From: a virus
DNA length: 45,823 nucleotides
Virus record (IMG/VR): IMGVR_UViG_3300040801_002379
Coordinates: 64,001 to 109,823 of that record
Strand: one strand, 5' to 3'
Numbering within the stretch: the first letter of the stretch is position 1; each line of letters starts with the position of its first letter. Below are positions 1 to 45,823 of this stretch, in pieces. A program made the position numbers and the translations under genes. Under the pieces are notes generated by a model. The model made no database searches and was not told the DNA's origin. It saw only the letters and a program-made list of their open reading frames with translations.

Positions 1-1036
1 GGGTCAGCTCGGCGTGGAGCTTCGCCTTCTCGTTCTGGAGATGCTGGCCTGTGACCGGCTGGCCACACTCGGAACACTCGCCTTCCTGCATCGCCTCCAG
101 CTTCTGGAGCCTCTTGTTGATGTGCTCGACGTGAGCGTTGGCCTGAGAGACGGGCTGTTGAGCCGCGTTGCACGCTTGGAGTCGGCGGTCCCGCTCCGTA
201 GCCCACGCCCAGGTGACCTCAGGAGCCACCAGGGAGGCCAGCTCCTGCTGCTTCTGGGGGAGCACCGCGACCACCGATTGCGCGTACTGGAGGGCCTCCT
301 GAGCCTGCTGGAGCTGCGCCTGCGCCTGTTGGAGGCGTTGGTCGCGGTTGGCCCGCCACTGCTCCTCCATCACGCCAACGTTGGTCTGCTTGTACCCTGC
401 GAGGTTGGCCTCGATGGCCTGGTTCGCAGCGATGACGTTCGAGTACGCCGTCGAGGCTTCGGCCGCCTTCTCCTTCGCGCGCTCCTGGAGCCGGTCGCAC
501 TCGGACAGCTCGGGTACGATTCTGGACAGGATGCGCTTCCGCTCGGAATCCGTGGCGTCAGCGAAGTCGAAGTTGTCGCCCTGCTTCCGGTAGACCGCCG
601 CCAGGAAGACGTCCTTGTCCATGCCGATGACGGTCTCGATGCGGGCGTCGGTCGCCTTGCCGTCCATCATCGTGCAGTTGGTCACCTCGTTGCCCTTCAT
701 GCAGAACAGCTTCACCCCATGCCCCTCAGGCATCTGGCGGTAGCGATAGACCAACCACGTCTCGTCCTTCTCCACTTCCAGCTCGACCTGGACCCAACAC
801 CGCTTCCCCGCCTCCTCGTTGACGACCGACTGCGCCTTGTCGCCCTTCGGCACCGTACCGAAGAGGGCCCAGAAGAGTGCATCGAAGACGGTCGACTTGC
901 CGGCGCCATTCGACTCCATCTTAGGCTCGTCCAGATTATCGCCCAGCACGAACGTGAGGCCTCGATTCCGGAGGTCGAGTTGGTGGGTCCCGTAGAAGGA
1001 CCCGAAGTTGTTCATGATGACCCTACCGACCCTCAT
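1..1036 (-). CDS. sbcC: SbcC/Rad50-like exonuclease ATPase subunit (3' end missing)
   Basis: The reading frame is open on the minus strand from an ATG at 1036 to the left edge without a stop, giving 345 codons, so the C-terminal half lies outside. The N-terminus carries a P-loop, ESNGAGKST at residues 41-49. It is followed by an alanine/glutamine-rich coiled-coil region and a zinc hook, CSEC at residues 321-324, in the usual Rad50/SbcC order. With its partner SbcD it would form an ATP-driven nuclease that opens or trims DNA ends (like T4 gp46/gp47) and feeds phage recombination. Its ATG overlaps the sbcD stop as ATGA, implying translational coupling and a 1:1 complex. The second Walker motif and signature motif should lie beyond the edge. 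Confidence 0.93.
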   Translation of the reverse strand, partial: MRVGRVIMNNFGSFYGTHQLDLRNRGLTFVLGDNLDEPKMESNGAGKSTVFDALFWALFGTVPKGDKAQSVVNEEAGKRCWVQVELEVEKDETWLVYRYRQMPEGHGVKLFCMKGNEVTNCTMMDGKATDARIETVIGMDKDVFLAAVYRKQGDNFDFADATDSERKRILSRIVPELSECDRLQERAKEKAAEASTAYSNVIAANQAIEANLAGYKQTNVGVMEEQWRANRDQRLQQAQAQLQQAQEALQYAQSVVAVLPQKQQELASLVAPEVTWAWATERDRRLQACNAAQQPVSQANAHVEHINKRLQKLEAMQEGECSECGQPVTGQHLQNEKAKLHAELT

Positions 1037-2001
1037 TGCAGCTCATCCCACATGTGCCAAAGCACCTTCTCGTCGAGGTTCTGGTCCGGCTTCGCTTTGT
1101 CCAGAATGTACTGGTTCACGTACTCCGAAAGGCCAGTCCCCTCCTGGAATGCGAACCGAGGCTGGACCGTCTGCTCGGTCGTGTCTTCCAGAATGACCTT
1201 GGCCGGATGGTTCTGAGCCCACTGCTTCCATCCGTCGGTCACGCCAGGGACAGATAGACGAATCGTATCACCTGGATTGCCCGGAATGGCCTGGCCCTCT
1301 ACGAAGTCCGAGGCGTCGAATCGATAGTGCTTCGGGCCCCAATCCTTCTGGATGCGGTGGAACTTCACGCCATCCCAGACCGCCACACCCTTGTCCTGTC
1401 CCCACTCGTCCGCACGGGTCTGCCATGGGGAGCCGATGTAGTGCGCGACGCCGCCAAGGAAGGTCTGCTGCTTGTGGTAGTGGCCAAGGAGGACCTGCTT
1501 GAAGCCCTTGAACTCGCCGATGCTGATGCCGTGCTCATCGACTTTGAGGTTGTTCATCATCGCTCCCTTCACGGGAAGGTGCGCGAACAACGGAATCGGC
1601 TTCTTCTGCCTCAACGACTTGAGGATTTCGGGAACGAACTCAGGCTTTCGATACGGACACCACGCACCCCACTCATCGATGGTGGGGTCGTCGTGAACGC
1701 GGACGCCCTTCCGCCTGAAGACGGACAGCGCGTTCTCTCCAGCCTCATCGACCTGGTCGTGGTTGCCGGGGAGGAAGATGACCTCGATGACGTTCTGCTG
1801 ACACTTCAAGAGCCATCGGTCCACGAGGTTCACAAGATGGACCGGGACGTTGTAGCGGATGTGCCAGAAGTCCCCGAGGAAACCGATGGTTCCAACGCCC
1901 AGGTTCAAGGCCTGTTCGAGCACGCCGTCCAGAACGGTGCTGCACACGGCCTGGCTTTCTGGACGAAGATGGAGGTCCGAGAAGAGGAGGATGCTGTTCA
2001 T
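1033..2001 (-). CDS. sbcD: SbcD/Mre11-like nuclease subunit
   Basis: A 322-residue calcineurin-type metallophosphoesterase. Metal-binding motifs appear in order: SDLHL (D9, H11), GDFWH (D44, H47), GNHDQ (79-83), AHLPV (H141) and GHYH (173-176). These are the hallmarks of the Mre11/SbcD nuclease, which works with SbcC on double-strand ends and hairpins. I chose the ATG at 2001 because it forms an ATGA overlap with the zinc-ribbon gene upstream. A GTG two codons earlier (2007) is also possible. The gene is coupled to sbcC by a second ATGA. The C-terminal third is the capping region that contacts the ATPase and is poorly conserved in the family. Confidence 0.93.
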   Translation of the reverse strand: MNSILLFSDLHLRPESQAVCSTVLDGVLEQALNLGVGTIGFLGDFWHIRYNVPVHLVNLVDRWLLKCQQNVIEVIFLPGNHDQVDEAGENALSVFRRKGVRVHDDPTIDEWGAWCPYRKPEFVPEILKSLRQKKPIPLFAHLPVKGAMMNNLKVDEHGISIGEFKGFKQVLLGHYHKQQTFLGGVAHYIGSPWQTRADEWGQDKGVAVWDGVKFHRIQKDWGPKHYRFDASDFVEGQAIPGNPGDTIRLSVPGVTDGWKQWAQNHPAKVILEDTTEQTVQPRFAFQEGTGLSEYVNQYILDKAKPDQNLDEKVLWHMWDELQ

Positions 2002-2252
2002 CGCCACTTGCCGCCCTTCTTGGTCGGAGCGTACCGGCCGAAGTTACCCGGAATCTTCTGGCCAGTCTTCTTCGAGATGGCCGCCATCTCGTAGCCACCT
2101 CCAGTGTCGATTCTGGAGCCCTGGACTGGAATCTCTTCGCGGGCTCCGGTCTCACCGCATTCTGGACACGCCCGAGGCTCGTCCCGCCGGGAAATGGAAC
2201 TGAAGACGTCGTACGTGTGCCCGTTCGGACAGTAGAATTCGTACTTCGGCAT
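1998..2252 (-). CDS. Small FmdB-type zinc-ribbon protein
   Basis: An 84-residue protein beginning MPKYEFYCPNGH, with a second CPEC pair at residues 29-32. The pattern C8-x3-H12 ... C29-x2-C32 resembles the FmdB/CxxC regulatory-ribbon family, whose N-terminus usually reads as Tyr-x-Tyr-x-Cys. The rest is basic and ends in KKGGKWR. A good ribosome binding site (AGGAGGGCGCC before ATG) fixes the start and overlaps the recA stop. Function is unknown. Its place between recombinase and nuclease genes suggests a nucleic-acid or protein adaptor, but that is inference. Confidence 0.8.
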   Translation of the reverse strand: MPKYEFYCPNGHTYDVFSSISRRDEPRACPECGETGAREEIPVQGSRIDTGGGYEMAAISKKTGQKIPGNFGRYAPTKKGGKWR

Positions 2253-2261
2253 GGCGCCCTC

Positions 2262-3371: not shown

Positions 3372-3377
3372 GATGTC

Positions 3378-7736: not shown

Positions 7737-8939
7737 CTAGTCGGGGTCCTTCAGTCCAAAGAACCGCTTCGCCGACATGCTGGCCTGGACCTTCCCGCCG
7801 ATGCTCTTGTGTCCCTCGATTTCGAGCTGGACCGAGTACAGCGTCGGATACAGCGCCTTTCCGTACTTGAAGCCCTCCTTCGTGATGGTGACCTTGTGCG
7901 TCGTACCATCCTTCTGCTTCCGCTCCAGAACTGTACCCCAAGGAAGGTCCTTCATGTACGGCTTCTGGAGGTCTCTTTCGAACCGGCTGGCGAACGTGGG
8001 GTTGAGCGTAGAGCCCGACGGTTTCGCCGCCGGCTTCGTAGGGCCCTTCTTCGCCGTAACCTTCTTGGTCGGAGCCTTCTTCGCCGTGACCTTCTTGGTC
8101 GAAGCCTTGGCCTTGGTCTCCACGAAGTCCTTCTTCTTCAGCTTCACCTTCTTCTGGACCTTCTTGGTCGGAGCCTTCTTGGTCGGAGCCTTCTTGGTAA
8201 TCGGAGACTTCTTCTTGGCGGCCGTGGCCTTCTTGGTCGGAGTCTTCTTCTTCACGACCTTCTTGGTGGGGGTCTTCTTGGTCATCGTCATTTCCTTCTC
8301 TTCAGGCCCATCGTCGAACTCGGGCAGAGCGTCAGGGGCGAACGCTACCTCGTTCTTCTCGTCGCTGTCAGCGAAATTCTGGAGGACATTCGCCAGCTCG
8401 GTACCGTCAGCCTTCTCCGCGTATTCCGGGGACACTTCGAACGAATCGTCGCCACCAGTGATGTCCTTCTCCGCCATCTCCTGGTCCAGAATCTCGCTCT
8501 CGCTCTTGATGAGCGCCGGGTCGCCGCCTGCAAGCTGAGCTGCTGAGCCGGGAGGCCCTTTGGGTGGTCCAGAATTCGAGGGCTGAAGGGTGTTGTCGGC
8601 CTGGAGGATGGGGAGGCCCATGCCGTGGTTGCTGTAGAGCTTCTTCGCGTACTCGATGCCGTTGGGCTCGGAGCCCAGCATGGCTGCGACCTCGTCGGCC
8701 TCGACGTCCCCGACCAAAGGCGTTTGCTTGTCCATCGTCTCGGCGATGCTGTGACCCATCTCCAGAGCAAGCTGAGGTAGGTGCTTCAGGGCCAGCGTGT
8801 ACAGACAGCGGGCTTGAGCCCCGCACTCGTTGTAGCAGAGCGAGTCGTACGGGTTCCACATGGACCCGAAGCAGGCGATTTCTTCCCGAATGTCCTCGTC
8901 GGACATGGCTTGGATGGTCTCGGAATTGATGTCCGTCAT
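7737..8939 (-). CDS. Lysine-rich histone H1-like protein with DUF2924-like C-terminus
   Basis: 400 residues in four regions. The N-terminus has a cysteine cluster (ACFGSMWNPYDSLCYNEC, then CGAQARC), possibly metal-binding. An acidic middle follows, then about 85 residues of APTKK/KTPTKK repeats like bacterial histone H1-like tails. The last 50-60 residues (HKVTITKEGFKYGKALYPTL ... KRFFGL) look like the DUF2924 family, which ends in a FFGL-type motif and is often found in phages. It probably binds DNA, through the lysine repeats at least. AGGAGAGAAC before the ATG at 8939 sets the start; an in-frame start at 9005 would run into the sigma-like gene. Its role could be genome compaction or regulation, which is inference. 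Confidence 0.82.
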   Translation of the reverse strand: MTDINSETIQAMSDEDIREEIACFGSMWNPYDSLCYNECGAQARCLYTLALKHLPQLALEMGHSIAETMDKQTPLVGDVEADEVAAMLGSEPNGIEYAKKLYSNHGMGLPILQADNTLQPSNSGPPKGPPGSAAQLAGGDPALIKSESEILDQEMAEKDITGGDDSFEVSPEYAEKADGTELANVLQNFADSDEKNEVAFAPDALPEFDDGPEEKEMTMTKKTPTKKVVKKKTPTKKATAAKKKSPITKKAPTKKAPTKKVQKKVKLKKKDFVETKAKASTKKVTAKKAPTKKVTAKKGPTKPAAKPSGSTLNPTFASRFERDLQKPYMKDLPWGTVLERKQKDGTTHKVTITKEGFKYGKALYPTLYSVQLEIEGHKSIGGKVQASMSAKRFFGLKDPD

Positions 8940-9498: not shown

Positions 9499-9729
9499 TT
9501 AGTCGGTGCTCTCCTCCACTTTCTTCATCTCGGCCTCGAAGGCCTCTCGGATTTCCTGGAGCAGGTCCTGCCGCTTGGCGCCGAACTCCATGGCTCGGGC
9601 GTGCTGCGCCGCGAGGGTCAGAGCCCCGAGGCTGTAGACCCCGGTCAGCGACATGCCGCTCATCCCCGCGAGACGACGGACGATGGCCGCCACCCGCTCG
9701 GTGGGGTTGATGGTCGTCTTGCTCTTCAC
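9499..9729 (-). CDS. Small hypothetical protein, GTG start coupled to primase
   Basis: 76 residues from a GTG at 9727-9729 that overlaps the primase stop as GTGA, with GGAG 7 bases upstream. The sequence is helical: an arginine-rich first third (PTERVAAIVRRLAG), a short hydrophobic middle (VYSLGALTLAAQHA) and an acidic coiled end (LLQEIREAFEAEMKKVEE). No family recognised. Coupling to primase suggests a replication accessory. A longer reading from 9816 would be mostly inside the primase and is not credible. Confidence 0.7.
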   Translation of the reverse strand: MKSKTTINPTERVAAIVRRLAGMSGMSLTGVYSLGALTLAAQHARAMEFGAKRQDLLQEIREAFEAEMKKVEESTD

Positions 9730-10781
9730 CGGAGGACTCCAGGGATGGCCATCGGATTCAGGGCATGGAACGGAAGGGCAGAGGCACGGAAGGCGTCCAA
9801 GGATGCGCGGTCCCAATCACCCGGGTCACCTTGCGGAAGGAAGACGAGGCGCAAGTCGAAATGCGCGGCGAGGGTGGGGGCCACCTGCATCATCTCGGGG
9901 TGGGCACCGTCAGGCTCGGACGGTGTCGGCCCATCCCACATAAGGTCCACGGCACGGACCCCCTTCTCGACCAAACGCCGAATCTGTCGAGGGTGAATCT
10001 GCTTGCCGAAGGTGCAGACTGCGCTTGGGCCCGCCCTCACAACGTCCATGGGACCCTCAACGATGGCGACGCGGTGGTAGGAGCAGGCGGTGTCGAGGTT
10101 CATCAGAACGTCAGAGGAGACCGCTGCGCCGGGCGACCGTGCCGGGTTCAGGGCCTTGATGAAACGTCCTTGGCTCTCGCTCTGCTCGTACATGGCCCTC
10201 GCCTGCCAGTAGACCAGGAACCCATCTTCCCAAACCGGGAAGACCAGTCGGTTCCGATACCGCCCCTCGGCGCACCAGAACAGACCGAACGTCCTGACGT
10301 CCTCCATCGTGATGCCGCGTTTGAGCATGTAAGGCAAGGGGGACAGGATGGGTCGCGCGCCTTCTGGCGCTGCGATGACGGCGGGGCGTCCAGAATTCGC
10401 AGCCGCCGCGAGCGCCTTGAGGTCCAGCTCGGGAAGAGCTTCTTCGAGGTGGATGCCGTTGGCGTCCAGAACCATCTGGATGGCCTCGTTGGCATCAATG
10501 CCTTCGAGCCACTCGATGAGCTTGAGCAGGCCTCCCGCTCCAGAAGCGGGACGCCTTCGCATGTAGCCGGCATGGTCATCCCACTGGTCCTCGTACTGCT
10601 GGCAGACCCAACAATGGAACGTCTTCTTCTCGGTGTTGACGGCGCACTTGTCCGTCTTGCCGCAGTGTGGGCAGTCGCCAACCCACTCGTCGGTTTTCAG
10701 GGCGTGGAACCCCTTGTCGGTGAGGTAGCCCTCGATGTCGAACGCATCGATTGCGCTCATCAGCTCGGCGTACCCGCTCAT
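9726..10781 (-). CDS. DNA primase (zinc-binding and TOPRIM domains)
   Basis: 351 residues. The N-terminus has a zinc ribbon CPHC ... HCWVC (C37, C40, C57, C60) as in DnaG/T7 primases, which read template trinucleotides. A TOPRIM core follows: VAIVEGPMDV with E242 and D246, then AVDLMWDG (D279, D283), and QGDPGDW (D319) in place of the usual DPDE. It should make RNA primers for the polymerase at 5469-7535 and work with the separate DnaB-like helicase at 11033-12475. The stop of the upstream small gene ends 1 bp before its ATG, so translation is coupled. Its transcript starts at the promoter at 10996-11023. Confidence 0.9.
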   Translation of the reverse strand: MSGYAELMSAIDAFDIEGYLTDKGFHALKTDEWVGDCPHCGKTDKCAVNTEKKTFHCWVCQQYEDQWDDHAGYMRRRPASGAGGLLKLIEWLEGIDANEAIQMVLDANGIHLEEALPELDLKALAAAANSGRPAVIAAPEGARPILSPLPYMLKRGITMEDVRTFGLFWCAEGRYRNRLVFPVWEDGFLVYWQARAMYEQSESQGRFIKALNPARSPGAAVSSDVLMNLDTACSYHRVAIVEGPMDVVRAGPSAVCTFGKQIHPRQIRRLVEKGVRAVDLMWDGPTPSEPDGAHPEMMQVAPTLAAHFDLRLVFLPQGDPGDWDRASLDAFRASALPFHALNPMAIPGVLR

Positions 10782-10782
10782 C

Positions 10783-10974
10783 TCAAATGTCGAACTTCGA
10801 CCCCATGTCCGGGAAGACGCGCTCGATGGGCTCTTCGTCCTCGGTCACCGAAGCAGGGCGCACGACGATGAACTTGCCCATCCACCGACAAACCTCGCGG
10901 GGCTCGATGCTCTCATTCGCTTTCTTCTGAGCCGAGGCTCGTGCCTCTTCCAGGGTCTCGAATGTCTCTGGCAT
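10783..10974 (-). CDS. Small hypothetical protein, first gene of a replication operon
   Basis: 63 residues from ATG 10974, with a strong site AAGGAGGAGCAG upstream and the promoter at 10996-11023 directly before it. The protein has a helical start (FETLEEARASAQKKANE) and a beta-like end (KFIVVRPASVTEDE), resembling small ssrAB-like or DUF folds, but I cannot assign it. It ends 1 bp before primase. Confidence 0.75.
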   Translation of the reverse strand: MPETFETLEEARASAQKKANESIEPREVCRWMGKFIVVRPASVTEDEEPIERVFPDMGSKFDI

Positions 10975-10995: not shown

Positions 10996-11045
10996 AGCAT
11001 AGCACAAAAGTCCAGAACGTCAATCAGAAAAGCTAAGATTCTGGA
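10996..11045 (-). promoter_or_regulatory. Promoter P1 of a three-copy family, with two TTCTGGA motifs
   Basis: Minus-strand TTGACG (-35, 11018-11023), a 16-base spacer and TATGCT (-10, 10996-11001) preceded by TTGTGC. The spacer begins with TTCTGGA (11011-11017 on the plus strand reads TCCAGAA). A second copy in the opposite orientation lies 15 bases upstream of the -35 box (11039-11045). Between them is a T-rich stretch, GCTTTTCTGA. The same architecture recurs at 18687-18737 and 19224-19273. It would drive the small gene and primase at 10974 and below. The upstream part overlaps the last codons of the helicase gene. Confidence 0.75.
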
Positions 11046-14000: not shown

Positions 14001-14113
14001 GGTGCATGAACCGTGTACCGCAACGTCGTGACCCCCATGGAAAGGAGCTTTGACTTGAAGAGATGATGACAGCATCCCTTCTGGATGTCCAGAGCTTCCA
14101 GAAACATGCGGAC

Positions 14114-14452
14114 TCATTCGCCCTCCTCGGATTTTTGAGGAGAAACCCCCTGATACCGCACTTCGAAGCGATGACGCCCGACGCCAGCCTCGATGTTCGC
14201 CCGAGCCGCTTCAACGATTCCAGGAAAGGCCTCGATGAGAGCCTTCTTGAAAGCCTCTCTGATGGCCGCTGGGAGGCCCAGGCGGAACCCGTCCAGCCCT
14301 CCGGTCGGGACCTCTGCGATGGCCCCTGCGACCTCTGAGCCCCCTTTGCGTTCTTCCTGCCAGGGCTGAGCCCTGACGAGGCGCTGAATCTCGTGGCCCG
14401 CGGCCTCCAGGGACGCCATGTCCACGTGGAAGGTGTCGTCTTCGTCGGTCAT
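14114..14452 (-). CDS. Hypothetical protein
   Basis: 112 residues from ATG 14452, with AGGAGGAGAGAGG upstream that overlaps the SF2-helicase stop region. An acidic start (TDEDDTFHVDMASLEAAG) is followed by a helical body (AIREAFKKALIEAFPGIVEA). No family recognised. It is the last gene before the terminator and therefore co-expressed with the helicase. Confidence 0.75.
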   Translation of the reverse strand: MTDEDDTFHVDMASLEAAGHEIQRLVRAQPWQEERKGGSEVAGAIAEVPTGGLDGFRLGLPAAIREAFKKALIEAFPGIVEAARANIEAGVGRHRFEVRYQGVSPQKSEEGE

Positions 14453-14466
14453 CGGCCTCTCTCCTC

Positions 14467-16002
14467 CTAACGCTCGGGCCCCCAAGGTGCGAGGTGTTGG
14501 CACCAGTCGTGGAACTGGTGGAGGTCGTCGCAGTAGCTCATCCGGAAGATGGGGTCGGTCGACATTGTGTGCCAGCGCTGCTGCGAGTGCTCCTTGAGCT
14601 TTCGGTGGTGGCAGTCGGCGAAGTCGACCACCACCGCGTACTTCTTGGTCCCCGTCTGCGTCAGGACCCGGTACCAGGCCTGCGTGAGGGTGACGGCGGC
14701 CTTCCCGCCCGCGGCGTAGACCAGAGCGTCGGCCGGTGGAAGGTCGGTCCCCTCACCCACCATGGACGTCCCGATGAGGACCCGGACGTTCCCGTGCTCC
14801 CGGAAGCTGTCCAGAACCTCCCGGATGTGATGCTTCGGCCTGTCGGTCGAGACGAACTCCACCGGGGACACGGTCTGGTTCGGGGCCTTCGAAGGAAACA
14901 TCGGCGCGAGGCGCTCGGCGATGGCGTAGCCCTGCTTCTTGGCTCCGACGAGGACGAGCACCGTCCGTCCAGAGTTGGATAGGTGCTTGGCGATGCTGGC
15001 CACGGCGTCATTCCGGAAGTCGTGCTTCACGATTCCCAAAGTCCCGTGACCGGCTGGCCCGAAGAAGCCGCGGACGCCGGCCTTCTTCGGAACCCGGACC
15101 TTCGGTCCAGAGATGCGGACGAAGGTGCTGTAGCAGGGGACGAGGTGCCCACGTTCCTCCAGAAACTTCGAGTCGACCCGGAAGAGGACCCGGCTGAGGA
15201 AAGCGTGCATGGCCATGTCGTCGCCGGATGACCGGAAGAACGTTCCGGACAGGCCCTTCCGATGCGAGATGTGCGAGCACTTGTCGTTGAGGTGCGAGCC
15301 CCAGCCCTTCTGCGCGAGGTAGTGGTGGGCCTCGTCGCAGACGAGGACGTGTCTGGACTTCCAGAACGGGTCCTTGAGCGTGAAGCAGCCCGCGGCCGTG
15401 GTGACGGTCAGAAGAGCATTGGTGACCTCGGTCTGGTTGCCGCTGGTCACCTGGACGGCGTCGTAGTCCTCGAAGAACGCACGAGCAGCCTTCACCGTCT
15501 GGTCGACGATGCTGGTCGAGGGAGCGACCCAGACCGTCGGAAGGCCGAGACGTCGCACCATCTCGAACGCCGTCCGTGTCTTGCCGGCGCGAGGTGGCAT
15601 CTCCGCCACCCCATCGGGGCTGGCGGTCAGAGCTTCGACCGCGGCCTCCTGGTAGTCGCGAAGCGGAATCGGCTTCGGGTAGCGCTCGGCAAATTCTGGA
15701 TAGGGCTCCAGAGGCGCACGGAGGTCACGAACCTCAAACGGGACTTGAGCTTCGTGCAGCGTCCACATGGCGACGTCGCGAAGTCCAGAAGGAAGCCAAG
15801 GAGGGATGGTCTTCGGCCGATGAAGAAACCGAATCCATCCATCCCAGGCTTTCTCCCGGTCGACGACGTTGTACTTCGGCGCGTGCCCCGTACCCTCGTT
15901 GTGCAAGTAGCAGGTCCGCGCGTCGATGAGGTCCAGAACCGAATCTGGAACGCCCTCCATCGACACGCGAGTCGGGGTGATGGTGAGCTTAGCCTTCTGC
16001 AT
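14467..16002 (-). CDS. SF2 DEAH-box helicase (UvsW-like)
   Basis: 511 residues of a superfamily 2 helicase. RDYQEAAV (115-122) acts as the Q-like motif, Walker A is MPPRAGKT (135-142), motif II is CDEAHH (222-227) and motif III is LSGTFFR (251-257). The C-terminal lobe has VLVGAKKQG, motif V TSMVGEGTDLP and motif VI-like QAWYRVLTQTG. Phage enzymes of this type (T4 UvsW) migrate Holliday junctions and unwind R-loops, switching origin-dependent to recombination-dependent replication. That fits a genome that also encodes RecA and SbcCD. The N-terminal 110 residues are a variable DNA-binding region. It overlaps the upstream gene by 14 bases and has a weak ribosome binding site. Confidence 0.88.
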   Translation of the reverse strand: MQKAKLTITPTRVSMEGVPDSVLDLIDARTCYLHNEGTGHAPKYNVVDREKAWDGWIRFLHRPKTIPPWLPSGLRDVAMWTLHEAQVPFEVRDLRAPLEPYPEFAERYPKPIPLRDYQEAAVEALTASPDGVAEMPPRAGKTRTAFEMVRRLGLPTVWVAPSTSIVDQTVKAARAFFEDYDAVQVTSGNQTEVTNALLTVTTAAGCFTLKDPFWKSRHVLVCDEAHHYLAQKGWGSHLNDKCSHISHRKGLSGTFFRSSGDDMAMHAFLSRVLFRVDSKFLEERGHLVPCYSTFVRISGPKVRVPKKAGVRGFFGPAGHGTLGIVKHDFRNDAVASIAKHLSNSGRTVLVLVGAKKQGYAIAERLAPMFPSKAPNQTVSPVEFVSTDRPKHHIREVLDSFREHGNVRVLIGTSMVGEGTDLPPADALVYAAGGKAAVTLTQAWYRVLTQTGTKKYAVVVDFADCHHRKLKEHSQQRWHTMSTDPIFRMSYCDDLHQFHDWCQHLAPWGPER

Positions 16003-16249
16003 CCAGGTCGCCGTTGTGCACGAGGTCCCAGAACGAACGTGACCCTTTGACCACGTCCTGGAACTTCCGGAGCTTCCGGCTCACGGTCTTGAGCGCGTTC
16101 CGCTTCCGGTCCACGTAGGGGAGCAGATTCAGAACGCCTGCCGCGAGGTCCTTCGCCGCCGGGCTGTCGGTGCCGGACAGAACGTCCAGAGCCATCTCCC
16201 GCAGCTCTAGGAGGCGCTGGTCATCCCATTCGTCAGGTCTGGATTTCAT
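15989..16249 (-). CDS. Hypothetical helical protein
   Basis: 86 residues, with GGAGGAGACG before the ATG at 16249. Almost entirely charged helix (RLLELREMALDVLS ... RKRNALKTVSRKLRKFQDVV). No family recognised. It overlaps the genes on both sides (17 and 14 bases), placing it in the helicase operon. Confidence 0.75.
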   Translation of the reverse strand: MKSRPDEWDDQRLLELREMALDVLSGTDSPAAKDLAAGVLNLLPYVDRKRNALKTVSRKLRKFQDVVKGSRSFWDLVHNGDLDAEG

Positions 16250-16652
16250 CGTCTCCTCCTCTCCACGCCTGGACCAGACTCGCGTACTCGTCCGGCGTGC
16301 TCTCCACTCGAACCTCCCCGATGGGCGTCAGCCCAGGAGGAGCCTCCTTCGGAGGCAGATAGCCCTCGGCGTATTTGGCCTCGGGGGTCTTTTCTGGACT
16401 CTTCGGCACGGGGGTCTTCTTGGCCTGAGGTGGAGGTGGGGTCTCCCAATCCTGGCTGAACCAAAGGATGTTCCTCTTCTCCTTCAGGCCAGGCTTCTTC
16501 GGAGTGACGTCCCACTCCTCCACGAGGATTCTGGACCCAGGTTCCTCTTCCATCTCCTTGGCGTGCCCAAGGCACGCTTCCTTCTTGTTCCAGACTTCCA
16601 ACACGTCTGAACCCTGATTCTGGACTTCACGTACGATGAGGTAGATTTTCAT
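16233..16652 (-). CDS. Hypothetical protein, first gene of the helicase operon
   Basis: 139 residues from ATG 16652 (another ATG is directly before it). The start MKIYLIVREVQNQGSDVLEV looks like a small alpha/beta domain of about 65 residues. It is followed by a Pro/Lys linker (PPPPQAKKTPVPKSPEKTP) and a short conserved-looking end. GGAAAGG lies close to the start. It follows the hairpin-rich non-coding stretch at 16653-16993, which is therefore its probable leader. Confidence 0.7.
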   Translation of the reverse strand: MKIYLIVREVQNQGSDVLEVWNKKEACLGHAKEMEEEPGSRILVEEWDVTPKKPGLKEKRNILWFSQDWETPPPPQAKKTPVPKSPEKTPEAKYAEGYLPPKEAPPGLTPIGEVRVESTPDEYASLVQAWRGGDDEIQT

Positions 16653-16993
16653 CATCCTTTCCCTTCTGGCTGAGGAGAAGGCTCCTCAAGTTTCTGGACC
16701 GTCAGGTCCGGACACACCCATAGCAACCAAGTAGGCTCCTTGAAGGCAGCCCCGTAGGGGGCTCCTTACTTGCCGCAAGCGGCAAGGATGCCCGAGACAA
16801 GCTCGGGCATGGCCGTGTGAGCCTTGAGGCGAACATGGCGGGGAGGGGAGTGGAGCGAGGCTCCCACTGAGCCTAACGTTCCCCAGACCCAAATGCGAGG
16901 TGCAAAAGCCAAACTTTCGTATTTCCTCATCTAGAACGCACACTTACAGAGCACGATTTTTATCCTACATGGCAGGCTATGTTGCGCGGGTAT
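16653..16993. other. Non-coding stretch with an array of hairpins
   Basis: No convincing gene in 340 bp. At least five inverted repeats lie in a row: TGAGGAG/CTCCTCA (16671-16688), GGACC/GGTCC (16696-16709), AGCCCC/GGGGCT (16748-16763), CTTGCCGC-AA-GCGGCAAG (16769-16786) and ATGCCCGAG-ACAAG-CTCGGGCAT (16788-16810, nine pairs). A sixth, imperfect one is AGTGG..CCCACT near 16849-16867. None has a T-tract. CAAGTA (near 16728) can also pair with TACTTG (near 16767) to enclose one hairpin. It could be a structured leader of the helicase operon, an untranslated RNA, a replication origin, or captured host intergenic DNA. Confidence 0.6.
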
Positions 16994-17269
16994 CTACTCT
17001 CCCATCGGGTTCTCCACTACACTCAGCTCCCGGGCGGGGACGGGCTTGATGCGCTCCGCGTTGTAGGCCTGGCCCATCTGACCGGTGACCCAGGCGATGA
17101 GGCACGCAGAGGGGTTCAGGTGGCCCCTGGTGGCTTCATCTAGGTACCCGGTGGTCTGAATCCAGGGAGGGGCCATCGAGGGCCAGAGGACGCCGTCAGA
17201 GGCCTTGCAGGTCGCGACGACTTGGGTCCCGCAGAGGACCACGTACTTCGGGGGCTGGAGCGGGTTCAC
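16994..17269 (-). CDS. Hypothetical protein, GTG start
   Basis: 91 residues from a GTG at 17267-17269 overlapping the upstream stop as GTGA, with GAGG about 8 bases before. The sequence has a beta-like start (KYVVLCGTQVVATCKASDGV) and a glycine/proline-rich middle. No family recognised. It is coupled to the secreted cysteine-rich peptide and may be its partner, though nothing in the sequence shows this. Confidence 0.65.
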   Translation of the reverse strand: MNPLQPPKYVVLCGTQVVATCKASDGVLWPSMAPPWIQTTGYLDEATRGHLNPSACLIAWVTGQMGQAYNAERIKPVPARELSVVENPMGE

Positions 17270-17475
17270 GGCGCCACCTCGTAGCCGGCCGGGACTGCGC
17301 TGACGTCGGCGCAGTAGCCGGTCAGGTCCATGGGCCTCTTGATACAGACGCACCCCGAGCCTCCGCAGAACGCGCTGCTCGCGCATTCCGCGTCGAAGCA
17401 GAGCCCGGCCTCACACCGGTTGTGCCAGACGATGAGCCCCAGCGCGAAGGCCAGGGCGGCGATGATGAGCTTCAT
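17266..17475 (-). CDS. Secreted cysteine-rich peptide with knottin-like spacing
   Basis: 69 residues. An N-terminal hydrophobic segment (residues 2-17) is a signal peptide or membrane anchor. Seven cysteines follow: C21, C26, C31, C37, C42, C44, C55. The run C26-x4-C31-x5-C37-x4-C42-x-C44-x10-C55 matches the loose spacing of inhibitor-cystine-knot peptides, including the C-x-C pair. It would act outside the cytoplasm, where disulfides form. Possible roles are protease inhibition, surface modification or superinfection exclusion, none proven. The ATG overlaps the preceding stop as ATGA, after GGAGAAGAGAC. No TTCTGGA motif occurs nearby, unlike most of the window. Confidence 0.7.
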   Translation of the reverse strand: MKLIIAALAFALGLIVWHNRCEAGLCFDAECASSAFCGGSGCVCIKRPMDLTGYCADVSAVPAGYEVAP

Positions 17476-17642
17476 GTCTCTTCTCCTTCTGACGGCATGT
17501 CCGCCGTCTCTTCGTAGACGACCTCGTCGAGGTCGCGGGTGATGGCTGACACGAGGTCGGCGGTCTCCATCTCGAAGCGCCGCCGTTCCTCTTCGAGGTC
17601 GGCCGTGGTGAACGTGGGCAGGTCGTCAGTCGTGGTAGCCAT
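17472..17642 (-). CDS. Short acidic hypothetical protein
   Basis: 56 residues, MATTTDDLPTFTTADLEEER onward, very acidic, ending in EGEET. The stop overlaps the ATG of the cysteine-rich peptide (ATGA), and the start lies 17 bases inside the upstream gene. The tight packing on both sides and coding-type base use support it although it is very short. Function unknown. Confidence 0.7.
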   Translation of the reverse strand: MATTTDDLPTFTTADLEEERRRFEMETADLVSAITRDLDEVVYEETADMPSEGEET

Positions 17643-17940
17643 CGTCTTCCTCGTACTGGCGCATCAGGGAGGCCTCCTCAGCGGGCGTAGGGCTCCGCTG
17701 GGACTCCGCGTAGCAGTCGCAGGTCCGGGTCCCGCACTCGTGGCAGAACGGCGCGTAGACCAGCTCCTCGGGCGCGTGGGAGCTAGGCATGCCCGGGAAG
17801 TCCATGGCCCAGAGAACCTGGACGCGGGTCCAGTCGAACCCCATCACGGTGCCCACCATGTCCCGGTAGGCGGGGATGGAGTTGGAGTTGGCGTCGGACC
17901 GCCGCACGCGGTCACCAACCTGGAGCTTACGCTTGGTCAT
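17626..17940 (-). CDS. Small protein with KOW/SH3-like start and cysteine cluster
   Basis: 104 residues from ATG 17940, preceded by AGGAGGCCGT. The first half, QVGDRVRRSDA ... MVGTVMGFDWTRVQVLW, has the alternating pattern of small KOW/SH3-type beta barrels that bind nucleic acid or protein. The second half has CHECGTRTCDC, a possible zinc site. Acidic tail. I cannot name a family. It overlaps the stop of the preceding gene as ATGA. Confidence 0.72.
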   Translation of the reverse strand: MTKRKLQVGDRVRRSDANSNSIPAYRDMVGTVMGFDWTRVQVLWAMDFPGMPSSHAPEELVYAPFCHECGTRTCDCYAESQRSPTPAEEASLMRQYEEDDGYHD

Positions 17941-18161
17941 ACGGCCTCCTGGAGGTTCGAGACCTCCTGAAAGAGCTTGGCGGTGTCGATGAGGCACCGA
18001 AGCTGCGAACGCTGAGCGATGCAGCGCTCGGCTGCTCGCGGGTCCATCTCCTCGGTGGCTTCCTGGAGGGAGGTCCCGAGGGTGGTCATCTCGCGTTCCA
18101 TCATGTCGATGACGTGGGCGAGGATGGGGTTGGGGGTGGGGAGGTAGTCGTCGAGTCGCAT
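17937..18161 (-). CDS. Hypothetical helical protein
   Basis: 74 residues from ATG 18161, with GAGGAGAAGTGACC upstream (the stop of the previous gene lies inside this leader). Predicted to be two or three charged helices (ILAHVIDMMEREMTTLGTSL ... AAERCIAQRSQLRCLIDTAK). No family recognised. Confidence 0.72.
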   Translation of the reverse strand: MRLDDYLPTPNPILAHVIDMMEREMTTLGTSLQEATEEMDPRAAERCIAQRSQLRCLIDTAKLFQEVSNLQEAV

Positions 18162-18163
18162 GG

Positions 18164-18646
18164 TCACTTCTCCTCGGGGAGCCGCTCGGCTTCGGTTCCC
18201 CAGCTTTCGCGGTCGGTTCGGTAGGTCACCACCCGGGCGGTGGCGAGGCCGCTGAGGCCCTTTCCAGAGCCGTTGATGGCAGCCCATGCCGGGGCCATTT
18301 CGCGGGCTTCGTGGAGCCCCAGAGCCTTCTGGACCTTGCTCCGTCGACCCATGGGGATGAACTTGCGGCCGAAGCGGTTGGCTTCCGCCTCGTGGAGGAG
18401 CCACACGCATCCGAACTTGCCGTCGACCACCTTGGCCTTCAGGCGCCGCTCGCCCTCGTACAGTCCGGTGAACTCGGCCCGCTTGCCGTTCTCGGTCAGC
18501 TCGGCCTTGGCCTTGGCGAGTTGGGCGCTCAGGCCGGAGCACCACTGGCTGACGAAGCCGTCGGTGTCGCAGCGCTCGAAGCTCTCATGGGCGCGGGTCT
18601 CGTGGGTTTTGGCTTCTTCGCGGTATTCATGCGCAGTCTTGGTCAT
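18164..18646 (-). CDS. Hypothetical protein, first gene after promoter P2
   Basis: 160 residues from ATG 18646 with GGAAGGAGAGCAG upstream. A helical start (AHEYREEAKTHETRAHESFE) is followed by a mixed alpha/beta body with FVSQWCSGLSAQLAKAKAEL and GRKFIPMGRRSKVQKALGL. No family recognised. As the promoter-proximal gene of a set of small coupled genes it is probably expressed early. The same P2 transcript should carry the five genes down to 16994. Confidence 0.75.
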   Translation of the reverse strand: MTKTAHEYREEAKTHETRAHESFERCDTDGFVSQWCSGLSAQLAKAKAELTENGKRAEFTGLYEGERRLKAKVVDGKFGCVWLLHEAEANRFGRKFIPMGRRSKVQKALGLHEAREMAPAWAAINGSGKGLSGLATARVVTYRTDRESWGTEAERLPEEK

Positions 18647-18686
18647 CTCTGCTCTCCTTCCGGGAGCATCCGCTCCCTGCATCTCT

Positions 18687-18737
18687 ACAGTAGCACAACC
18701 GTCCAGAACGTCAAGCAGAAAAACTCAAGTTTCTGGA
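18687..18737 (-). promoter_or_regulatory. Promoter P2 of the three-copy family, with two TTCTGGA motifs
   Basis: Minus-strand TTGACG (18709-18714), a 16-base spacer starting TTCTGGA, and TACTGT (18687-18692) after TTGTGC. A second motif in the opposite orientation is at 18731-18737, 16 bases upstream of the -35 box, separated by a T-rich stretch GAGTTTTTCTG. It serves the gene at 18164-18646 and those after it. Compared with P1, the -35 hexamer and the spacer start are identical. Confidence 0.78.
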
Positions 18738-18745
18738 CTTTTCGT

Positions 18746-18997
18746 TCATGGCTTCCAGGTCCGTTCCGCCCAGAAGGCATGGAGGTCGGTCGGGTGCTCC
18801 TGACAGAGCTTCTCAACGTCTTCCGCGCCGATGATGGTCTTCAGCTCCCAGAACCGGCCCTCGACGAAGGCGTTCCGAATCTGGACGCAACGCTTCCGCA
18901 TGGCTCGGGCCTCGGCTTCGAGCTGCTCGGCTGAAGCCGAAAGGTGTTCGATGGTGGCTTGGCAGGCTTCTCGGGCCCGCTCTTCAGGGGTCAGCAT
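18746..18997 (-). CDS. Hypothetical helical protein
   Basis: 83 residues, helical and charged (LTPEERAREACQATIEHLSA ... AEARAMRKRCVQIRNAF). The start ATG 18997 has AAAGGAG upstream, and the seven bases between that site and the start codon are exactly TCCAGAA, a copy of the window-wide motif. It ends just before promoter P2 and is transcribed from P3. No family recognised. Confidence 0.75.
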   Translation of the reverse strand: MLTPEERAREACQATIEHLSASAEQLEAEARAMRKRCVQIRNAFVEGRFWELKTIIGAEDVEKLCQEHPTDLHAFWAERTWKP

Positions 18998-24769: not shown

Positions 24770-24891
24770 CAGCTACCTGCCTGTCGTGGGCGCTCCGCAT
24801 TGAACACCGGCTTCACCGCGGGCTTGCGGGGGACCACGCCCGGGGTGCTCTCGACCCGGGTTGCGGGTTCTGGATTCGCAGCAAATGCCAT
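24769..24891 (-). CDS. 40-residue protein, N-terminal duplicate of the next gene
   Basis: Reads MAFAANPEPATRVESTPGVV, then a basic end, RPRQAGS. About 12 of its first 15 residues match the next gene. It ends in TGATG, sharing one base with that start. The leader GTGAGGTGACCC resembles that of the 330-residue gene upstream. It looks like a decayed or minimal copy left by tandem duplication, but coding-type base use suggests it is still translated. Confidence 0.65.
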   Translation of the reverse strand: MAFAANPEPATRVESTPGVVPRKPAVKPVFNAERPRQAGS

Positions 24892-24899
24892 GGGTCACC

Positions 24900-25892
24900 T
24901 CACAAGATGGGGAACTCTCCGGAGGGCCATGGAATCATGACGCCCGCCGCCACCACCGCGTACCGGAGCGGTTCGCCATCACCATCCTCAACCGTGCCTC
25001 CAGGCGTATTGTTGCTCACCGCCTTGATGTCGACCCACTTGCCCATCCACCTGAAAGGTGAAGTAGAAGAGTAGAACTCCAGGTCGAACACGAGTAGCCG
25101 CCCTGCGAAGTCGAGCCCGTTCGCCCATGCGGTGTTATTTGGTCCAGAACTAGAAGCCCAACCGCCCGGTCCACCGACTGCAATTCGGATTGCGATTTCG
25201 TCGGACAGGTTCATATAAGCGCCGCAGTCGCTTGAAATAGAAGAGCCAGCCCCCAGCCCAGAGCCAGCGAAGTTGCTCGGGTTGTGAATACGGAACACGC
25301 ACAAGTGGTCTTCGCCCGTGCCAACCCCTGCTTCCACCGGGTCGTCGACCCTGAGCCAGAACTCAAACTCGTTGAATGCCTGAGACTGCCGCTTCGCGAA
25401 GAAGATGACGTCACCTCGGTCGCTCACGATGCTGTGCCACACCCCATCGACCGGCGTCGTCCAATCCCGGAGAATGACCGAATCTGTTTGAAAGTACGTT
25501 GCCAGCGACGGCTCGACGGGCGCCGCACTCGCACTGATACTGGAGATGTCGAAGTCGAGCGAGCTGAAGGTGTAGCGGATGTCCTGCGGTGTGGTGGTCG
25601 CCGTGTCTTCGGCTTCGATAAGAATTTGCCCCTTGTGCTGAAGGGCGCCAAACTCATACAGAGCCCACGTCCGGGCCGCTGCGCTGCTGCCCACCACCAC
25701 GTCGCCAGAACTACCGATATTGTCGCCCGCTGAGGCTGACACGCCATCGCTCGACGCGACCACGGTGTACCCCGCCGCCACGAACGCCGAGTGCAACGCG
25801 AAGAAAAGCTCCTGATACTGCTGCACCTGCGTCAGCCCGGCACCGATTACGTTGTTGACGTCGTGAGTCCAAGTTTTAATCAGAGTCGCCAT
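24900..25892 (-). CDS. Tail-region structural protein, paralogue 1 of 3
   Basis: 330 residues. Opens MATLIKTWTHDVNNVIG and ends VMIPWPSGEFPIL. Both ends and internal stretches (AAGYTVVASSDG, RTWALYEF) recur in the next two genes upstream at the same positions. Beta-rich, no family known to me. Three similar proteins in a row beside baseplate J suggest a repeated or hetero-oligomeric baseplate or fibre part. This copy is the most diverged of the three and has one TTCTGGA-type site. Confidence 0.65.
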   Translation of the reverse strand: MATLIKTWTHDVNNVIGAGLTQVQQYQELFFALHSAFVAAGYTVVASSDGVSASAGDNIGSSGDVVVGSSAAARTWALYEFGALQHKGQILIEAEDTATTTPQDIRYTFSSLDFDISSISASAAPVEPSLATYFQTDSVILRDWTTPVDGVWHSIVSDRGDVIFFAKRQSQAFNEFEFWLRVDDPVEAGVGTGEDHLCVFRIHNPSNFAGSGLGAGSSISSDCGAYMNLSDEIAIRIAVGGPGGWASSSGPNNTAWANGLDFAGRLLVFDLEFYSSTSPFRWMGKWVDIKAVSNNTPGGTVEDGDGEPLRYAVVAAGVMIPWPSGEFPIL

Positions 25893-25895: not shown

Positions 25896-26888
25896 TCAAC
25901 CTACTGGAAAAGCATCTGCGGGCCATGGAATCATGAGCCCCTTGATGACGTGTGCGTACCGCACCGGGTCTGCGTCGTCGGCTTCCACAATACCGAAGGG
26001 GTAGTTGGGGTTGCACTGCCGCACGTCAGTCCACACCCCGAACCATCGACGGTCAGTCCCCTGACTGCTCGAAAGGTAGACCGGAAAGTGGACGACGCGC
26101 TGTCCCTGCTCAACGTCCGGAGATGACTGGGCGAGCGTCGTGTAGCCGCCTATGGAAACGCCGGATGTGTAGTTGCCGAGCGCGTCCTCGTCACATGCCG
26201 TGGAGTCTGGACTCGGCGAGAGAACTGGCGATGATGAGGCGGAAGACCACTCCATGAGCATCTGGAGGTTTCCTGCTGGAGTGCCCGCACGCGCGGCTGT
26301 GTCTGTACGAATGGCGAAAATGCCCTGGGGGAAGGGGTCGACCGGTACGTAGTACGCTTCGCGCGTGAAGAAGAAGAAGTCCCCTTCATCGGACCACACG
26401 GCGTGCCACCACATGCCTTGCCACTCTTCCACGCCGCTCCAGGGACGAAGCTCGAAGTCGACCTGGATGCTAAGCGCGGTATCAGGACCGTTGGGCGTCG
26501 GCGTGCTGCTCACCGTGGCTGCCGCTGTATCGAAGCCGAGCACGTCCGCGTAGCTGTCGACGCCTTGGTTCTTCGAGACGCCTACGACGGTTTCAGGTTC
26601 GACTAGAAGCTGCCAGCTCCCGGCGTCAGGCATCCCGGCGGGCGGGTCGTAGAGAATCCATGTCCGGGCGCTGGACGTATTGTCGCCCTGCACCACGTCC
26701 GCAGTTGTGACCACGTTGTCGGTGGCGTCAGCCGTGACCCCGTTGGAGCTGAAGACCACCGTGTACCCGGCGGCTTTCAGGGACTCATGCAGCGCGATGA
26801 ACGCCAGGGCGTACTGCTCCTCCACCGTCGCCTGCGGACCAATGAAGTTGTTGACGTTGTGGGACCAAGTCTTTGCGAACGTAGCCAT
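25896..26888 (-). CDS. Tail-region structural protein, paralogue 2 of 3
   Basis: 330 residues, opening MATFAKTWSHNVNNFIG and ending LMIPWPADAFPVG. It shares with paralogue 3 AAGYTV-SSNG, RTWILYDPP, FVRTDTA/IRTDTA and AGTPxGNLQ, so these two are closest to each other. No TTCTGGA-type site in the gene. Function unknown, see paralogue 1. The start overlaps the previous stop as TGATG. Confidence 0.65.
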   Translation of the reverse strand: MATFAKTWSHNVNNFIGPQATVEEQYALAFIALHESLKAAGYTVVFSSNGVTADATDNVVTTADVVQGDNTSSARTWILYDPPAGMPDAGSWQLLVEPETVVGVSKNQGVDSYADVLGFDTAAATVSSTPTPNGPDTALSIQVDFELRPWSGVEEWQGMWWHAVWSDEGDFFFFTREAYYVPVDPFPQGIFAIRTDTAARAGTPAGNLQMLMEWSSASSSPVLSPSPDSTACDEDALGNYTSGVSIGGYTTLAQSSPDVEQGQRVVHFPVYLSSSQGTDRRWFGVWTDVRQCNPNYPFGIVEADDADPVRYAHVIKGLMIPWPADAFPVG

Positions 26889-27889
26889 CAGAGCACCGGG
26901 AACCCGTCAGAAGGCCATGGAATCAAAAGCTCATGGATGAGGTGGATGTAGCGAACCGGGTCCGTGTCTCCGTCTTCGACCCAGCCCGCCTCAAGCTCAT
27001 CGGACACGGTTCGGATGTCGGTCCAGATACCGAGGTACCGAGCGATGTCCTGCGCGGCAGACGACGACCAGTAACAGGGCCAATCAATCAGTCGTCCTCG
27101 TTCATCGAGCCCATCGGTCCACGTGTCTGGTGCATCGAAGGACACCGAACTCAGCGTCGCATTCGCAGTGCTGCTGGGCTTTCCACTGCGGTTGAAGCAC
27201 ACACAAGGGAGGTTCGCGTTGGGGATGACGGGAAAGGTGGTCGAGTTGCTGGCCGACCAGCCACCCACGATTTGAAGATTCCCATCTGGAGTGCCTGCTC
27301 GCTCCGCGGTGTCAGTCCGCACGAACAAGATGGACCCTGCGAAGGCGTCACGCATTCCGCGTGCCCGGGTGATGAAGAACAGGTCACCCTCGTCGGACCA
27401 CATGGCGTGCCAAGTAGCCGCTGAATCCTCTGTCGTGCTCCAGTAACGAATGTCGACCAGCACGTCGATAACGGTCAGTGCCTGTTCATCGTTGGGCGTC
27501 GGCAGCGTACCCGTTGCGGCTGCCGACGTGTCGAAGCCCACGAAGTCGGAGTACAGCTTGACGCCCTGGTTCTGGCTCGGTGCCGAGTTGATGACCTCGG
27601 GCTCGATGAGAATCTGCCAGGTGTCGCTGTCCGGCGCAGTCGCGGGCGGGTCGTAGAGAATCCACGTCCGTGGGGTCGAGGTCAGGTTCCCAACCACAAC
27701 GTCTGCCTTGGTGAGCACGTTGTCGCTGGCGTCCGCGGTAGTGCCGTTGCTGCTGTAGGCGACGGTGTAGCCCGCGTTCTTGAACGTATTGTGGAGCTGA
27801 AGGAACAGCTCCTGATACAAGTCCTCGACCGTGGTCTGGGGGACCACGTTGTTCACGTCGAAGGACCAATTCTTGGAAAGCGCTACCAT
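26888..27889 (-). CDS. Tail-region structural protein, paralogue 3 of 3
   Basis: 333 residues, opening MVALSKNWSFDVNNVVP and ending LLIPWPSDGFPVL, with GAGGAGCATC before the ATG. This is the first copy read after baseplate J. It has a cysteine pair (LPCVCFNRSG) not seen at the same place in the others. No TTCTGGA-type site. Role inferred only from position. Confidence 0.65.
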   Translation of the reverse strand: MVALSKNWSFDVNNVVPQTTVEDLYQELFLQLHNTFKNAGYTVAYSSNGTTADASDNVLTKADVVVGNLTSTPRTWILYDPPATAPDSDTWQILIEPEVINSAPSQNQGVKLYSDFVGFDTSAAATGTLPTPNDEQALTVIDVLVDIRYWSTTEDSAATWHAMWSDEGDLFFITRARGMRDAFAGSILFVRTDTAERAGTPDGNLQIVGGWSASNSTTFPVIPNANLPCVCFNRSGKPSSTANATLSSVSFDAPDTWTDGLDERGRLIDWPCYWSSSAAQDIARYLGIWTDIRTVSDELEAGWVEDGDTDPVRYIHLIHELLIPWPSDGFPVL

Positions 27890-43697: not shown

Positions 43698-43698
43698 T

Positions 43699-44022: not shown

Positions 44023-44275
44023 GCTCAACCCTCCTTTCGAGGCGAGCGAGCGTCTCGTTGACTCTCTCATTGGTCTCCGACTGTCTGGTGGAGGCCGCGG
44101 TTGAGTCAACGAGGACGCCCTGCATTTGGTCGATGAGCTGCTTCATGAAGGTCTCGTGGTTGTCGCGAGCCTTCACGTAAGCGCGGGCCACGAAGCCGAT
44201 GCCAATGAACAGCAAGGCGACAATGGCCCAAGGGCCATTCGCAGCGAGTGCTTCGACCAGTGTCTGGAAGTCCAT
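44003..44275 (-). CDS. Membrane protein with coiled coil, holin-like size
   Basis: 90 residues from ATG 44275, overlapping the preceding stop as TAATG. One membrane segment (residues 15-32, PWAIVALLFIGIGFVARAYV) followed by a charged helical tail (MKQLIDQMQGVLVDS ... LARLERRVEHVE). This layout is found in some one-segment holins and in mobile-element leader proteins. There is no endolysin beside it, so holin is only a possibility. It ends 20 bases inside the next gene. Confidence 0.65.
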   Translation of the reverse strand: MDFQTLVEALAANGPWAIVALLFIGIGFVARAYVKARDNHETFMKQLIDQMQGVLVDSTAASTRQSETNERVNETLARLERRVEHVETRN

Positions 44276-44802: not shown

Positions 44803-44811
44803 GGTGGTCTC

Positions 44812-45823
44812 CTAGCTGCTGGGCAGCGATGCTGGTGCGCTGGTCGAGTTGTAGATGCGAAGCTCATGACCGGTCCCGTTCCAGGCGCCGAGGTCTTCGC
44901 CCGCAAGCGTCGTACCGCTCGTGGTGGTGAAGGCGCCGTCGCCCGTCCCCGTCCACGACGTCAACGCGGCGCCTGCCGTCACCGCACCGAGGAGCGTTGC
45001 AGACCCAATGGGGTTACCATCATCGTCTGCCTGCTGAATCCAGAGTCGGGCTTGGTCATTGGCGACACTCGCTTCCGCGATGACCAGCCAACGGGCGCCG
45101 GCATAGGGGGCCGCGGATACAGCCACCCGGGCTTGGTCCGTTTGAGGGGGTGCAGCTCCGTTGCCGATACGCCAGACCAGCTCTCCAGCCGTGATGCCGA
45201 GATAGGCGCCATTAGAGCCACCACCAATCTCCAGAATGGTGCCCGTTGGTGTTCCCCCAAAGGTCACGTCCGCAACGATGAAGGCGTCGTCTCCTGCGAC
45301 GATGTCCAGCGCACCATCGATGACGGTCGTGTCGGTTCGGAGCACGTCCGGAGCACCGAGGCCACCTTCGTAGTCGTTCACCGTTCGCTGCCGCTTGACC
45401 CAAGCGTACAGTTGCGCCGTCTGCGCCTCCGTGGGCGCTACGCTGAAAATCATGGCGCCGAACCATCGATAGCTATTGTCGGGGGCGGCCGAAGGTGCGC
45501 CGACCGCGATAGGGTCGAAATGCTCCAGAGGGTCGGCTTCACGCCATGTCCCGCTGGCATTACTCATGGTTATCACTTCACCGTTGAAGACTGCATCTGC
45601 ATCATTGAACGCACGTAGACGTAGGACTTGATGTATGTCGTTTTCGAAGTCTGGAGTAACCGCAATCGTAGGTGTGACGAAAGCGCTGGGCGTACCGTCG
45701 GTTGACACCATGGTCGCCCGCGTCCTGGTCAGAGTATCCACCCGCGTCCCAAAGCCACTGAAGCCACCACTGTTACGATTCGACACGAGAGTAGACCAGT
45801 CCGTCCCGACCGCACCCCATCGA
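44812..45823 (-). CDS. LamG/ConA-like virion protein (5' end missing)
   Basis: The frame stays open past the right edge. The only internal start-like codon, a GTG at 45786, is preceded in frame by sensible sequence (WGAVGTDWSTLV), so the gene begins outside. 336 codons are visible. Around residues 110-330 is a beta sandwich (DAFIVADVTFGGTPTGTILE, then NGAYLGITAGELVWRIGNG and GTGHELRIYNSTSAP) with the LamG-like order in which the last strands carry GxxxxLRIYN. This fold often binds sugars and is used as head decoration or cell-attachment domain. Confidence 0.75.
   Translation of the reverse strand, partial: RWGAVGTDWSTLVSNRNSGGFSGFGTRVDTLTRTRATMVSTDGTPSAFVTPTIAVTPDFENDIHQVLRLRAFNDADAVFNGEVITMSNASGTWREADPLEHFDPIAVGAPSAAPDNSYRWFGAMIFSVAPTEAQTAQLYAWVKRQRTVNDYEGGLGAPDVLRTDTTVIDGALDIVAGDDAFIVADVTFGGTPTGTILEIGGGSNGAYLGITAGELVWRIGNGAAPPQTDQARVAVSAAPYAGARWLVIAEASVANDQARLWIQQADDDGNPIGSATLLGAVTAGAALTSWTGTGDGAFTTTSGTTLAGEDLGAWNGTGHELRIYNSTSAPASLPSS

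Follow-up and report, generated by a model that had tools for sequence, protein, structure and literature searches.

The DNA considered here is a stretch of 45,823 nucleotides (the window) that spans bases 64001-109823, that is, the end, of the IMG/VR virus record IMGVR_UViG_3300040801_002379 (G000), and its most conspicuous element is a 7-base word, TTCTGGA, which recurs on both strands (as TCCAGAA on the other). This word probably represents the operator-like recognition site of a sequence-specific regulator, itself likely phage-encoded, that would be bound at hundreds of places in the genome. The decisive clue is position: copies of the word stand beside the -35 box of predicted promoters, which makes a regulator binding site the probable explanation. 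The phage is a myovirus with a family-A polymerase, DnaB helicase, tail sheath, RecA/UvsX protein, primase and Terminase_6-type large terminase. Its sheath shares only ~30% amino-acid identity with those of known phages, and the phage collection contained no near DNA match to the record.

The window holds exactly 133 copies of the word, the number that an earlier note on this DNA had reached by hand, and the positions quoted there (102, 520, 1100, 1957, 2511 and 5858) all carry it. The whole 109,823-b record contains 336 copies, or about one per 330 b. Chance expectation in the window is 3.5 copies for independent, identically distributed bases and 6.1, 10.0 and 24.1 under Markov models of order 1, 2 and 3, corresponding to an excess of 38-, 22-, 13- and 5.5-fold, respectively. 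A further control shuffled synonymous codons inside each predicted gene of the whole record (simple codon-score calls by the author rather than a standard annotation): 297 genic copies are observed, against 73.8 +/- 4.6 in 200 shuffled rounds (maximum 86). This ~4-fold excess is a conservative figure, as the shuffles retain codon counts already inflated by the sites. The excess of more than 20-fold claimed earlier is real, although its size depends on the null and shrinks under the stricter ones. TTCTGGA ranks first of all 7-mers by z score at each of the three Markov orders in the window, and it is also the top 7-mer of the record when codon shuffling is applied to all 7-mers. The other high-scoring words are mostly shifts of the same site (TCTGGAC, TTTCTGG, ATTCTGG); an unrelated high word is GTTGATG (28 vs 4.3 expected), and no unrelated 7-mer matches the excess of TTCTGGA. 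Codon use or Markov composition as a sufficient cause is ruled out by these controls, in neither of which a similar count was reached.

The arrangement of the copies points to a signal at the level of DNA, as the earlier note had proposed. All six gene-relative phases are used (phases 0/1/2: 15/100/36 in sense and 16/90/42 in antisense orientation), and the excess is extreme in phase 2, where codon shuffling yields 0.6 sense and 1.0 antisense copies. Orientation within genes is balanced (148 sense, 149 antisense), and strand skew is absent both from the record (169/167) and, in any consistent form, from its 10-kb blocks. The 39 copies outside predicted genes correspond to 4.9 sites per kb, compared with 2.9 per kb in genes, and intergenic density is likewise higher in four relatives (G013, G014, G007 and G019). 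Density is near-uniform in every 10-kb block, and spacing is more regular than Poisson, with a variance/mean ratio of 0.66 per kb and few pairs less than 20 b apart. The largest motif-free gap, of 2.8 kb, extends from the site at 25143 to that at 27947 of the window (record 89143-91947) and is filled by three tandem paralogues. That the gap is made of such paralogues suggests recent acquisition, and this stretch is probably newly acquired DNA not yet furnished with sites; the three genes are nearly devoid of the word, have a low codon score and were not found in most relatives.

Site-by-site comparison between relatives shows that individual copies are conserved. In an alignment of G013 and G014 (~70.8 kb, 70.5% DNA identity), 82 of 154 sites in G013 are identical in G014 (53%; 82 of 134, or 61%, from the G014 side), whereas same-composition 7-mers are conserved at 13% and 10% and all 7-mers at 12%. 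Whatever the codon phase, roughly one half to three quarters of the sites are conserved, as are 7/13 of those between genes, with controls of 8-14% (11% intergenic). Between G013 and the contig L455 (79.6% identity), 64% of sites are kept, compared with 25% of controls. A functionless effect of composition or mutation, arising from codon use or from context-dependent mutation or repair, could draw on the fact that codon shuffling reproduces part of the genic count (73.8 of the 297), but it is highly improbable in view of site conservation ~4-fold above that of control 7-mers, the occurrence of the word in all phases and in intergenic DNA, its drift among relatives and its fixed position at promoters.

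This fixed position emerges from close pairs of sites. Inverted pairs 28-30 b apart occur in excess, several of them intergenic, and they belong to a promoter family of the form TCCAGAA-nn-TGAGTTTTTCTGCTTGACG-TTCTGGAC-N8-TANNNT. In 10-11 sigma70-like promoters, predicted from sequence, a -35 box of TTGACG, TTGACA or TTTACA directly precedes NTCTGGA, and most also bear an inverted TCCAGAA upstream, so that TCCAGAA-N21/22-TTCTGGA encloses the -35 box. Each of ten matches to the template is followed, 52-109 b downstream, by a gene on its own (minus) strand. The TCTGGA that follows the -35 box is constant, the rest of the spacer to the -10 box is variable, and the outer flanks are unrelated. TTGAC is found six times at the exact offset against 0.31 expected, and of the six copies of TTTACA in the record, four lie at the exact offset and one lies a base nearer (0.014 expected per offset). 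An ADP-ribosylglycohydrolase gene (E 1.5e-49; record 53274-54350) is located directly behind one of these predicted promoters, at 54380.

Such an arrangement is consistent with binding by a protein that, with two copies of its site flanking the -35 box, would either compete with RNA polymerase there or touch it, as at an operator. The other ~300 copies, on both strands and in genic as well as intergenic DNA, could let the same protein coat the entire phage genome during part of the infection and either silence it, by blocking transcription in both directions, or organise it as a nucleoprotein scaffold. A role in the timing of lytic growth is no less likely than one in lysogeny, because no match to the tyrosine integrase family (PF00589) was found in eight records. 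The earlier note had named a regulator and a nucleoid protein among several possible readers of the word, and both were rightly included.

An alternative is that the word works like Chi, halting a host nuclease of the RecBCD/AddAB type and converting it to a recombination enzyme, so that phages of this host would accumulate it. Its length of 7-8 b, asymmetry, dispersal over both strands and site conservation all fit, its CTGG core is similar to that of some known Chi words, and its drift would follow that of the hosts' Chi. This possibility is nevertheless unlikely, since it accounts neither for the constant position next to the -35 box in ~11 promoters nor for the inverted upstream copy, and a similar excess was not found in any host genome: the highest counts among the matches listed in the genome scan were ~2750 in 4.9 Mb, or 0.56 per kb, compared with 3.1 in the phage. 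That no host carrying the signal was found, together with the promoter position and the balance between strands, also argues against the likeness to Chi, KOPS, DNA-uptake and HIP1 signals suggested in the earlier note. When genomes of four phyla (388, 379, 398 and 386 genomes) were searched with sheath or primase profiles, mostly distant sheaths and cellular primases came back and no host was identified; none of the loci returned had the word in excess. In two Victivallales metagenome-assembled genomes (G001/G002; L090, L084), TTCTGGA outnumbers its reversed control about five-fold across the genome and on both strands, at 0.56 per kb, which is possibly codon-related.

The signal is that of an uncultured phage family, among whose members its sequence drifts. 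Relatives were gathered with the primase and sheath profiles, which brought in dozens more. Pattern scans of viral and genome collections returned, among the matches listed, mostly repeat-rich coding genes and one useful find: viral contigs scanned for three copies of the word close together yielded the 63.7-kb G007, which has 41/40 copies by strand. G007 is kin to the phage studied here, with identities of 49% for the sheath, 40% for DnaB and ~48-50% for the primase. The variants among these kin are TTCTGGA[C/G], TTCTGGAA (the word of G013 and G014) and CTCTGGAA (L423), with TCTGGAA in G019 and TGCGGAA in an outlier, and many relatives keep the TCTGGA core with altered edges. The contig L005 contains 44 copies of TTCTGGA against 3.7 expected; G015 displays a weaker excess of GCTGGA that is partly codon-driven, and G006 lacks the signal. 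The outlier, G017, has 168 copies of TGCGGAA against 18.7 expected, in all phases, and carries two predicted promoters in which TTGACA is followed by TGCGGA at once or after one base, with another copy 21 b upstream. G016 was considered as a carrier as well and was not counted, its TGCGGAA excess being almost confined to phases s1 and a0, which looks like a codon effect. On the sheath tree, the outlier group stands apart from the TCTGGA-type phages; changes of motif label counted on this tree gave no clustering signal, many contigs probably being too short to score, and because of these short contigs no firm number of gains and losses is given. A more far-reaching interpretation is that, throughout this ~110-kb myovirus family, a single evolving, sequence-specific protein coats the whole genome at hundreds of sites, amounting to a viral chromatin written in the sequence, by which promoters would be silenced and the DNA marked as self, with site and reader co-evolving so that the codes of relatives are mutually unreadable; this is tentative and more doubtful than the operator-like role itself.

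Two candidate readers are encoded outside the window. The first, of 219 aa, contains a weak match to a Myb/SANT-like domain (E 0.026) besides its other predicted domains, and G013, G014 and G015 have orthologues that are 35-41% identical, in each case with the same gene next to them. The second, of 95 aa, matches PHROG 323, a group of D5-like transcriptional regulators (E 5.5e-9); in the predicted promoter before its gene run, at 59491, the upstream copy typical of the family is missing and a second copy, direct, lies at the -10 box. The phage also encodes a lysine-rich, histone H1-like protein, in which no sequence-specific domain is recognisable; it is possibly a non-specific partner and is not the favoured reader. 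In another alternative, the word is foremost a packing or nucleoid signal, bound by a phage architectural protein to compact or segregate DNA, with the placement at promoters secondary. Regular spacing, presence on both strands, near-uniform density and the existence of the H1-like protein agree with such a role, yet we regard it as improbable, because so specific an arrangement at promoters would not be a mere by-product and the H1-like protein shows no recognisable sequence-specific domain.

In a last alternative, a methyltransferase acts on the word, which is retained since the mark is needed. An asymmetric 7-mer ending in A does resemble some targets methylated on one strand, but this explanation is very unlikely: the N6_N4_Mtase family (PF01555) had no match in G000, G013, G014, G015 and G007 and was found only in G016 and G017, and restriction usually causes avoidance of a site, as for CTCGAG in this phage. 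No methyltransferase is among the Pfam hits listed for the scanned proteins, one of these lists ending at E ~5e-5, other methyltransferase families not having been searched singly. A phage methylase, another of the readers suggested earlier, consequently receives no backing in the TTCTGGA-type phages. The N6_N4 methyltransferase genes are located at G017:C1:71415-72920 (behind a ParB-like part) and G016:C1 ~51204-51800. They follow a gene whose syntenic counterpart in TTCTGGA-type phages comes before the SANT/winged-helix protein; those phages are without that methyltransferase. The palindrome CTCGAG (the XhoI site) is nearly absent from the record, with 1 copy where ~85-112 would be expected, and many kin contigs have none, yet it is strongly enriched in L388, L389 and G017 (GCTCGAGC, 76 vs 9), so that one palindrome is avoided by some members of the same phage family and enriched in others.

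Several points weigh against a regulator that reads the word as an operator. Only one or two motif-bearing promoters were found in relatives other than G000, and the single TTGACA with TTCTGGA in its spacer that G013 and G014 share, upstream of the head genes, would not be significant alone. The ~11 promoters of the record share sequence, which could partly reflect old duplication. The structural model of the 219-aa protein has a mean predicted local distance difference test (pLDDT) score of 65, and its Foldseek matches to MerR, RacA and SANT-like folds are weak, with E at least 0.6; the protein was not found in G016 or in G017, the TGCGGAA phage, and the 95-aa protein has no convincing orthologue. 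Lysogenic silencing is unsupported, no tyrosine integrase having been found, and the sites show no orientation preference, unlike stoperators. Finally, dispersed and conserved sites would equally be expected of a signal that works through its density, such as Chi.

Features of the phage discussed in the text (window positions unless marked as record positions; promoters and operators are predictions)
Feature	Coordinates	Strand	Details
Dispersed copies of the word	1..45823	both	60 as TTCTGGA (+), 73 as TCCAGAA (-); genic and intergenic
Lysine-rich histone-H1/HC2-like protein	7737..8939	-	C-terminal domain common to relatives
DnaG-type primase with CHC2 zinc finger	9726..10781	-	in gene run downstream of promoter 10996-11045
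Operator-bearing promoter	10996..11045 (record 75036)	-	upstream of small gene 10783-10974 and primase; TCCAGAA 11045-11039, N21 holding -35 TTGACG 11023-11018, TTCTGGA 11017-11011, -10 TATGCT 11001-10996
Operator-bearing promoter	18687..18737 (record 82727)	-	upstream of gene 18164-18646; TCCAGAA 18737-18731, N22 holding -35 TTGACG 18714-18709, TTCTGGA 18708-18702, -10 TACTGT 18692-18687
Three tandem paralogues, 330-333 aa	24900-25892, 25896-26888, 26888-27889	-	fill the largest motif-free gap
Candidate reader, 95 aa	record 58516-58803		two predicted helix-turn-helix segments
Candidate reader, 219 aa	record 61131-61790		predicted Myb/SANT-like domain, MerR-like winged helix, zinc ribbon

Elsewhere in the record, a 1615-aa protein (record 14002-18849) combines inorganic-pyrophosphatase, Hint/intein splicing, DUF5661 and zeta-toxin-like kinase domains, and a second zeta-toxin-like domain is present in the gene at record 23343-25586.

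The number of sites is what sets this phage apart, since known dispersed-operator phages carry ~20-30 sites and here there are hundreds. That sites are tolerated in nearly every gene and conserved singly suggests that selection pays a constant protein-coding cost for a genome-wide regulator or architectural protein. With hundreds of sites per genome and several drifting words, the family offers an unusually rich natural data set on the joint evolution of a DNA-binding protein and its site, and the word can serve as an easy sequence marker of these phages, which are otherwise uncultured.

A full-text literature search for the word in phage papers found nothing. Chi, HIP1, KOPS and DNA-uptake sequences are short words of cellular genomes that are hugely over-represented regardless of codon phase; none of them is known to occupy a fixed place at promoters. 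KOPS are strand-biased, unlike TTCTGGA, and HIP1 is palindromic, whereas TTCTGGA is not its own reverse complement and the 8-mer of G013 and G014 is only nearly symmetric. Phage P1 possesses dispersed, asymmetric C1 operators, about twenty sites of ~17 b over a ~95-kb genome; the sites described here are likewise asymmetric and scattered over a phage genome, but they number in the hundreds. Cluster A mycobacteriophages contain 20-30 asymmetric operator/stoperator sites of 13 b, some in early promoters and most stopping elongation (PMC6550527); the site sequence differs from phage to related phage in step with the repressor (PMC6550527, PMC9283540). Their repressor (L5 gp71, TipsytheTRex) binds as a monomer with two DNA-binding domains (PMC9283540). 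As in Cluster A, one short asymmetric site of drifting sequence both adjoins promoters (10-11, as predicted) and is dispersed, and both candidate readers might use two DNA-binding domains. In contrast, the present phage is an unrelated myovirus without a tyrosine integrase match, its sites are of 7-8 b and about ten times as numerous, and, whereas Cluster A sites are mostly intergenic and oriented with transcription, 297 of the 336 are genic and evenly divided between sense and antisense. Because the rules of orientation and location fail and the sites are an order of magnitude more numerous, the system is not filed as a member of the Cluster A stoperators; by analogy, it probably resembles an enlarged, orientation-independent version of such a system.

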